From positions 1 to 43,513 of the forward strand of contig JAQWPD010000050.1 in NCBI GenBank assembly GCA_029245525.1: a stretch of 43,513 nucleotides of DNA. Reading direction: 5' to 3'. Below are positions 18,986 to 20,086 of this stretch, one piece after another. The notes below the pieces were generated by a model, which had not been told where the DNA came from, searched no databases, and saw nothing but the letters and a program-made list of their open reading frames with translations. The position numbers and the translations under genes were made by a program. Position 1 is the first letter of the stretch; the number at the start of each line of letters is the position of its first letter. The DNA comes from Gammaproteobacteria bacterium. GTDB taxonomy: Bacteria > Pseudomonadota > Gammaproteobacteria > Steroidobacterales > GCA-2729495.

Positions 18986-19005
18986 CGATATCCGAAAAAA
19001 TATCG
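18986..19005. promoter_or_regulatory. Inverted repeat CGATAT-N8-ATATCG upstream of the ArsR-type gene
   Basis: A perfect 6-bp dyad with an 8-bp A-rich spacer, 122 bp upstream of the regulator start codon at 19127. The half-site sequence differs from the dyad at 19094-19117, but the 8-bp spacing is the same. It could be a second operator for the ArsR-type protein or a site for another regulator; binding is inferred only. Confidence 0.4.
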
Positions 19006-19039
19006 TAATGCGGGTTTGCTCCAGCTTCGATCCGGTGGG

Positions 19040-19055
19040 TGCGGCCGGGGCCGCA
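19040..19055. repeat. GC-rich palindrome TGCGGCC-GG-GGCCGCA
   Basis: A 7-bp perfect inverted repeat around a GG centre, lying between two AT-rich dyads in the leader region of the ArsR-type gene. With only two central bases it could not close as a tight full-length hairpin, so a DNA-level site is more likely than an RNA structure. No known regulator motif is assigned. Confidence 0.3.
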
Positions 19056-19093
19056 TCAGCGCTGCAGTGCCTCTGCAATTGCGGCACTTGTAT

Positions 19094-19117
19094 AAATATA
19101 AAGAAATCCTTATATTT
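19094..19117. promoter_or_regulatory. Probable operator: AAATATAA-N8-TTATATTT dyad before the ArsR-type gene
   Basis: A perfect 8-bp inverted repeat with an 8-bp spacer, ending 9 bp before the ATG at 19127 and overlapping a TGTATAAAT -10-like box at 19089-19097. ArsR-family dimers typically bind 12-2-12-like or similar AT-rich dyads over promoters, so autoregulation of this gene and of metF-metH is a natural inference. The match of this site to published SahR motifs was not checked. Confidence 0.55.
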
Positions 19118-19126
19118 GCAACCCAG

Positions 19127-20086
19127 ATGGCCATGGAAACCACATTGAAGACCTTGCGCGCGATTGCCGAGAGCAGTCGCTTGCGCTTGCTTGCGCTTCT
19201 TGAAACCGGAGAGGTCTCGGTTGGTGAGCTGGTGATTGCGCTTGAACAGAGCCAGCCGCGGGTATCCAGGCATTTAAAACTGCTGGTCGATGCCGGACTG
19301 GTGGAAAACTTTCGTGATAGTCATCATGTTTACTACCGGCTAAGTCATGATAGCGGGGCCCAGGGATTGCTCAGGGAAGTGCTGCGCGGTCTTATTGGTA
19401 ATGCTGAAATCGCGGCCGACCTCGAACGCTTGGCTAAGGTTCGGCAGGCACGTGAGAAGGATGCCTACAGCCGCATCGATACAAAACATGCATGGGCGCA
19501 GGCATTTCGCCAGAGTGCCAGTGTCGGGGCTGCAGAGGAGGCATTGGACGATGCGCTGTCTGATATTGAGTTAGGCGAGCTATTAAGTGTGCGCACGGAC
19601 AGTGGCCGGCTGCTCCAGCATCTCGCACCGCAGGCTCGTTCTGCCACCGGAGTTGAGCATTCGCAGGCCATGCGTCTACTGGCAAGGTCCAGACTGCAAC
19701 AGGCAGGGCTCGCGGAGTGCACCGTGCGCAACGCCGCCGGCAATCAGCTGCCATTTGCGGCATGCAGTTTTGACACGGTGTTGTTGAACGAAGCATTAAG
19801 CCGAGCAACTGATAAACGACAGGTCTTATCCGAGGCTGCGCGAGTGCTTCGTTCCGGTGGTCGTTTGCTGGTTCTTGACTGGGTGCAGCAGGCGATATTG
19901 CAAAACAAAGATTTATCACGCAAACCTGAGCAAGGCGCAGCACTGATGGCTGACAATCAGCTGCGTACCTTGTTAGCAGAGCAGGGCTTGTCTGTGGTTC
20001 GCCGTAGCTGGCTTCCTGGCAAATCTCCGAATTACGCGTTGTTTATGGCGATACCCGTCAGCGCGTTAAAAATCGATTCAGCCTGA
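19127..20086 (+). CDS. ArsR-family regulator fused to a degenerate SAM/SAH-binding domain (SahR-like)
   Basis: A 319-residue two-domain protein. Residues about 4-75 form an ArsR winged helix ([20 protein letters not shown] ... [19 protein letters not shown]) with no metal-binding CxC. Residues about 140-300 resemble a class I methyltransferase: [33 protein letters not shown] and [17 protein letters not shown]. The motif-I glycine loop, normally DxGxGxG, reads [15 protein letters not shown], so catalysis is doubtful and ligand sensing more likely. SahR regulators of the methionine cycle in Proteobacteria are ArsR proteins that respond to S-adenosylhomocysteine. The position directly before metF-metH fits that role. 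The frame runs back to 19016; the ATG at 19127 (or 19133) matches the family start. Confidence 0.8.

Follow-up and report, generated by a model that had tools for sequence, protein, structure and literature searches.

A SahR-type regulator with an eroded motif I heads a metF-metH cluster in a gammaproteobacterial genus

Introduction

SahR of Proteobacteria was reportedly described by Novichkov in 2014. The regulator carries a methyltransferase-like second domain and is held to sense SAH with this methyltransferase fold, and motif I of such a fold forms the SAM/SAH site.

SahR is presented as a SAH-responsive protein that recognizes a 20-bp palindrome and targets SAM-cycle genes, with ahcY and metK among its core targets and the core regulon defined by the majority of genomes (PMC4239095). 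A second source describes SahR as a repressor acting through SAH (PMC8877191). Two relatives of SahR are close enough to matter here. SamR of Xanthomonadales is a SahR-like protein encoded beside metH with a 24-bp palindrome; ATC-N10-GAT is given as a consensus common to SamR and gamma SahR (PMC4239095). In Brevundimonas, another report describes ArsR^M, the product of the first gene of metRFHH, which shifts a promoter probe holding CTTTATATAAAG (PMC10190100).

Here we analyze a stretch of 43,513 nucleotides from a gammaproteobacterium (contig JAQWPD010000050.1 of assembly GCA_029245525.1), referred to as a whole as the window. An earlier note, made from the letters of this DNA, had proposed a SAH-sensing ArsR-type regulator with a degenerate methyltransferase domain, preceded by three palindromes and followed by metF and metH. 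We find an ordinary SahR locus with one unusual feature, a sensor domain that has truly diverged and is still under selection.

Results

The regulator gene occupies positions 19133-20086 on the forward strand and encodes 317 aa, with ATG 19127 as an in-frame alternative start. Its product joins an ArsR winged-helix DNA-binding domain (residues 14-58, positions 19172-19306, forward strand; PF01022, E 2.1e-12) to a methyltransferase-fold domain (approximately residues 129-310, positions 19517-20062, forward strand) recognized by PF08241 and by the predicted model, the PF08241 match itself spanning residues 157-247 (E 8.2e-16; class I methyltransferase, PF08241 and relatives). This is the SahR combination of an ArsR HTH and a methyltransferase-like domain, and the size fits that of the 1023-bp sahR of Ensifer (PMC8877191). 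ArsR^M of Brevundimonas sp. M20 is likewise an ArsR-methyltransferase fusion encoded by the first gene of a metF-metH operon (PMC10190100). The gene order in the window runs gatA, gatB, an Hsp33 (hslO-like) gene and then the regulator, directly followed on the forward strand by metF (methylenetetrahydrofolate reductase, 20107-20991; NF006950 above its cut-off) and metH (B12-dependent methionine synthase, 20957-24688; NF007024 above its cut-off). The metH match begins at residue 15, and the true start of this gene is probably a little downstream of the listed ORF start. The regulator gene is real and encodes a SahR-type protein, with ArsR winged helix and methyltransferase fold, that heads a sahR-metF-metH cluster; the proposal of such a regulator ahead of metF-metH with a specific operator is supported. 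The description of a winged helix devoid of metal cysteines also stands: the only cysteines are C196 and C211, and the winged helix has none, so that as far as cysteine-based sites go the HTH lacks the metal-binding cysteines of an ArsR/SmtB metal sensor.

A protein search recovers the regulator in all 40 genomes of the family. Two copies are imperfect, one being a fragment at a contig end (G026) and the other (L200; G005:C6:52492-53397) carrying one in-frame TGA within this assembly, yet retaining a perfect operator. The MetF signature SFEFFPP follows the regulator at 39 of 40 family loci, the sole exception (L209) being a 900-base stretch with a regulator fragment. Beyond the family we considered the best 80 of 571 relatives among named genomes, which include Azospirillum, Kiloniella, Thalassospira, Litoricola, Brevundimonas and uncultured Gammaproteobacteria; nine of these 80 loci look like contigs of the family genomes (eight equal, and L122 nearly equal), leaving 71 others. 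Within this set of the best 80, metF lies inside the fetched flank in 79, and the only miss (L137) is cut by a contig end. Homology and a common operon order connect the locus with relatives from two groups for which SahR is listed, Rhodospirillales and Caulobacterales (PMC4239095). Other means of control over methionine genes were also sought. MetJ was found in none of the 40 family genomes, while the E. coli control gave a match; a riboswitch search against Rfam came back empty both for 18800-20200 and for seven stretches around metK-ahcY; and RF01057 matched none of the 40 genomes, but as its control likewise remained without a match, this result does not count as absence.

Of the three dyads in the earlier note, only the third (dyad 3, 19094-19117) matters. 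It reads AAATATAA-N8-TTATATTT with 8-bp arms, is conserved in the family, and contains the core ATATAAAG-N4-CCTTATAT at 19096-19115. The corresponding family pattern, ATATAAAG-N4-CTTTATAT, is found upstream of all 40 regulator copies and departs from them at 0-3 of its 16 informative positions; nine of the 16 are invariant in every site. Genome-wide, 35 of the 40 genomes hold the 20-base pattern at no more than one mismatch (31 of them once and four twice), against 1/40 for the backward control. The genome scan that the note had proposed returns dyad 3 as the sole site in the window genome at this threshold, with no second one. In both sister genomes the operator is a poorer palindrome, with 2 and 3 mismatches; the sister with 3 (G011) is one of the five genomes unmatched at up to one mismatch. 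Among the best 80 of 571 named relatives, an operator at no more than four mismatches precedes the regulator in 73 of 79 (one was left out because its upstream sequence was too short), compared with 2 of 395 control windows, which were drawn without overlap with the true site; the other six of the 79 have no good site. The operator resembles that of the fetched alphaproteobacterial relatives, for example Azospirillum. By sequence, the locus therefore has the palindrome of roughly 20 bp that SahR would be expected to have ahead of sahR, metF and metH, its dyad core occurring in 40/40 family copies.

These sites also bear on whether the protein is instead a SamR-type regulator as in Xanthomonadales. 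In favour of this, SamR resembles SahR, is encoded next to metH genes and has a palindrome that spans 24 bp (PMC4239095). Its operator consensus is a different one, however: ATC-N10-GAT, which would also be expected of gamma SahR, is found in none of the 40 sites, an A standing where C is needed in all 40 dyad-centred sites. We regard the SamR assignment as very improbable.

Dyad 1 (CGATAT-N8-ATATCG, 18986-19005) and dyad 2 (TGCGGCC-GG-GGCCGCA, 19040-19055) both exist as the note had them, and are missing from both sister genomes, which rules them out as operators. Of the refuting conditions in the note, occurrence at random loci and lack of conservation do not hold for dyad 3; dyads 1 and 2 are not conserved. 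Dyad 1 is probably a chance occurrence; elsewhere in the genome it recurs exactly just once, within a coding frame flanked by ORFs that we read as argC-like and argF-like. Dyad 2 probably arose by chance or forms a local hairpin. The intergenic stretch holds one more perfect dyad, the fourth, whose arms are 6 bp long (AGTGCC-N11-GGCACT, 19066-19088); not among the dyads of the sister genomes, it sits just ahead of the -35-like hexamer. When this 235-bp stretch was simulated with a first-order model, the average expectation was 0.83 dyads with arms of at least 6 bp, 0.21 with arms of at least 7 bp and 0.05 with 8-bp arms, so that the four dyads seen exceed chance mildly if at all. In one sister (L004), close to where dyad 1 would lie and about 130-160 bases before the regulator, a GC-rich stem AAAAAGCTCCGC-TAAA-GCGGGGCTTTTT is followed by a T run and looks like the terminator of the Hsp33 gene.

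Sites away from the regulator give little indication of further targets. At no more than three mismatches the window genome holds 11 sites against 16 for the backward control, no excess, and its only 2-mismatch site (G000:C96:23220) was rejected as a target, the adjoining genes having no visible methionine link. A second site in another genome (G002:C165) was also set aside; it falls where the frame of a sigma54-type regulator meets a D-alanyl-D-alanine-carboxypeptidase-like frame. Two further second sites (G006:C180 and G038:C86) are at contig ends.

The remaining second copy is of a different kind. In G005, a second perfect operator lies in the metK-tkt interval, and ahcY follows on the far side of metK, which ties the operator to the SAM cycle. 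Upstream of metK-ahcY the operator is otherwise missing, in 17 of 18 family genomes examined (best match 5-9 mismatches), among them the window genome, where the 400 bp before metK-ahcY contain no better match than one with 7 mismatches. An operator that would bring ahcY and metK, core SahR targets, under control is accordingly seen in one of 18 genomes (G005) and not in the window genome. Given that genes are assigned to the core regulon by what holds in most genomes, the missing site narrows the regulon and does not exclude membership in the SahR family; in the window genome the regulon looks reduced to sahR-metF-metH, as judged from operator positions.

The tkt-metK intergenic region has features of its own. 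Of 18 family genomes, 11 carry GCGCATTGTCGC no more than 300 bases away from metK. In the window genome (L182; G000:C8:9500-16500) it lies about 232 bases before metK, and the opposite strand carries TTGCCA-N17-GACAAT with a GC-rich discriminator, which is perhaps the tkt promoter. Across the three genomes of the window's genus (L182, L183 and L184) the 300 bases before metK are 95-97% identical (286-292/300), and the sahR genes of the same genomes differ at many silent sites (dS 0.25-0.63).

The operator also appears to be the promoter. A -10-like hexamer, TATATT at 19111-19116 on the forward strand, comes from the right arm of dyad 3 and ends 10 nt before ATG 19127, an overlap already pointed out in the note. 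A weak -35-like hexamer, TTGTAT at 19088-19093 on the forward strand, has 3/6 matches and a 17-nt spacer and varies in the family. The right arm of the dyad yields TATATT or a near form, again -10-like, across the family, and the distance from this box to the first start codon is 6, 7 or 8 nt in 35 of 40 copies and 10 nt in the three members of the window's genus; one further start lies 11 nt past the box, and the remaining copy (L011) has a TTG inside the box and then an ATG at 7 nt. SD-like words occur at none of the 40 regulator starts versus 27 of 39 metF starts, the latter a generous count that allowed any of three starts. A scan for sigma-70 consensus promoters found no site at its threshold. 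With a -10-like box just before the start and no SD at any of the 40 starts, the pattern suggests a leaderless or nearly leaderless, self-repressed sahR message whose promoter would be covered by the repressor. A start codon immediately behind the operator sets this locus apart from SahR as described.

The sensor domain is where the locus departs most clearly from its relatives. In place of the motif I consensus DxGxGxG the window's protein has SVRTDSG (residues 152-158, positions 19586-19606, forward strand), within a stretch reading LLSVRTDSG (residues 150-158). Of the 39 family copies that are full-length, 31 have an intact motif I, five lack its acid and three its glycines; the 31 include one copy with a shortened loop missing the last glycine. 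That copy (L208, the G013 regulator) is a departing one, with E as its beta2 acid and a very long branch (1.1). The three glycine-loss copies are those of all three genomes of the window's genus, in which the SVRTDSG loop is identical: G154, present in 35/35 other family copies with a letter there, and G156, present in 36/36, are both lost in 3/3. The lost glycine loop is thus real and confined to this genus. In the best 80 of 571 named relatives motif I is intact in 78, the exceptions (L111 and L169) apparently being two copies, from G006 and G034, that the family count includes as well. The later motifs, said to remain, are recognizable and have also changed: in the window's genus beta2 ends in E175 in place of D, the acidic residue that should follow beta3 has been substituted or is not constant (AA, IE and ID in the three members), and residue 219 is N and not D.

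A tree of the 39 family copies and eight outgroups requires three motif-state changes (in the window's genus, in g8 and in g3), a number that is a reading and not proof because the motif columns were kept in the tree and the g3 pair rests on a weak fork (92/51) with long branches. The clade of the window's genus has support of 100/100. Judged from these sequences, weaker erosion of the motif probably arose twice more, in g8 and g3.

The note had reasoned that because motif I is lost the protein is a sensor and not an enzyme. This step fails: with motif I kept in 31 of 39 full-length family copies, sensing by SahR at large is not accounted for by its loss, and because motif I forms the SAM/SAH site, losing it makes canonical SAH binding less likely, not more. 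Homologues with an intact SAM motif, which the note had listed as evidence against itself, are accordingly the rule in the family (31/39), and methyltransferase activity in a homologue, listed likewise, is on record for Brevundimonas ArsR^M, reported to methylate arsenite (PMC10190100). This raises the question of whether the window's protein is a bifunctional arsenite methyltransferase and regulator of the ArsR^M kind. The Brevundimonas counterpart, encoded by the first gene of its metF-metH operon, is reportedly active with an intact DLGTGSG, although the activity appears to rest on a coupled assay kit (PMC10190100). In the window's genus, by contrast, none of the three members retains the DxGxGxG expected of an active methyltransferase, and the window's protein has only two cysteines, neither in the HTH. 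Of the readings considered here, we give this one the least credence, and close to none.

A more serious alternative is that the pocket no longer binds SAM or SAH at all, leaving a ligand-blind autorepressor that would hold a set level by negative feedback and use the fold only to support the dimer. In all three genomes the loss of motif I is accompanied by D175E, D219N and the loss of a constant acid after beta3, the operator, HTH and purifying selection were all retained, and two other clades show weaker, probably independent erosion; each of these fits. The pattern of selection fits less well. Pairwise omega within the window's genus is 0.096, 0.143 and 0.127 for the methyltransferase domain and 0.129, 0.166 and 0.193 for the HTH, so the former (0.10-0.14) is as low as the latter (0.13-0.19). 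The predicted structure (pLDDT 85.8) is intact as well, superposing on SAM methyltransferases with Z up to 23.3 (against 1vl5, Z 23.3, rmsd 2.1 over 170 residues). Low omega and an intact predicted fold are more than a mere spacer would need, and the identity of SVRTDSG in all three genomes suggests constraint. We consider complete ligand blindness possible but doubtful.

Whole-gene omega in the window's genus is 0.10-0.15, which rules out a decaying gene. Pairs with an intact motif give methyltransferase-domain values of 0.128 and, for a second pair, 0.207, and the eroded g8 clade gives 0.135-0.169 for the domain and 0.15-0.22 for the whole gene; metF is tighter in the genomes of the window's genus (0.023-0.066). 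The fold, as predicted, is kept and selected, and the ligand loop is not. Matches to solved structures by phmmer cover one domain each, HTH or methyltransferase; winged-helix O-methyltransferases were rejected as a full-length likeness, the long Foldseek matches having query TM-scores of no more than 0.50.

The same constraint would also be expected if the effector had changed, with a remodelled loop (R154 and D156 being new) binding some other methionine-cycle or folate metabolite. Shared replacements in three genomes within a constrained domain, and a gene still ahead of metF-metH, agree with a new ligand; nothing points to any particular one, however, and we consider a changed effector unlikely.

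Discussion

The homology group, operator, gene neighbourhood, motif loss, purifying selection and predicted fold described above were computed directly. Taken with the published role of SahR and the Brevundimonas fusion of the same architecture, a SahR-type autorepressor of the sahR-metF-metH cluster is the best explanation of the locus, and we hold it with high confidence, a judgement that leaves the effector aside. The locus resembles SahR of Proteobacteria, an ArsR-family regulator of the SAM cycle that is self-regulated through a palindromic operator and targets sahR, metF and metH (PMC4239095), a likeness that here is drawn from sequence. It differs in that motif I is destroyed in the window's genus and in that metK and ahcY are without an operator in the window genome.

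We infer dimer binding, repression, a leaderless start and an effector step as follows. A regulator dimer would bind the dyad at 19094-19117, covering the -10 region of its own promoter. In Brevundimonas sp. M20, ArsR^M likewise recognizes a palindrome, of the CTTTATA/TATAAAG type, in the promoter of its own gene (PMC10190100). The dimer on the window's dyad would then shut off the sahR-metF-metH transcript, which probably starts at the start codon or a few bases before it. The methyltransferase-fold domain may have been retained for sensing or for structure and not for catalysis; in the window's genus, motif I and further residues that contact SAM are replaced under continued selection. As for the effector, our first choice is SAH, bound through a remodelled pocket; the replacement of SAH contact residues in the window's genus makes this step uncertain, and we hold it at somewhat less than an even chance. 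In a weak search of open-licence literature, we recognized no report of a SahR without motif I or of a leaderless sahR.

For the family as a whole, we put forward a scenario that we hold only tentatively. The SAM/SAH site of SahR may have eroded about three times within one gammaproteobacterial family while the operator and operon were kept; the regulator of the window's genus may have become ligand-blind or re-liganded, acting as a set-point repressor or a re-tuned sensor, with a leaderless message and a promoter that is the operator. The locus bears on how an enzyme fold turns into a sensor, and on how a regulator persists without its hallmark ligand loop. About three separate erosions alongside close relatives with an intact motif provide natural pairs in which ligand binding and release from DNA can be compared. 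The operator, for its part, is clear enough to annotate metF-metH control across this family, in which none of the 40 genomes matched MetJ.
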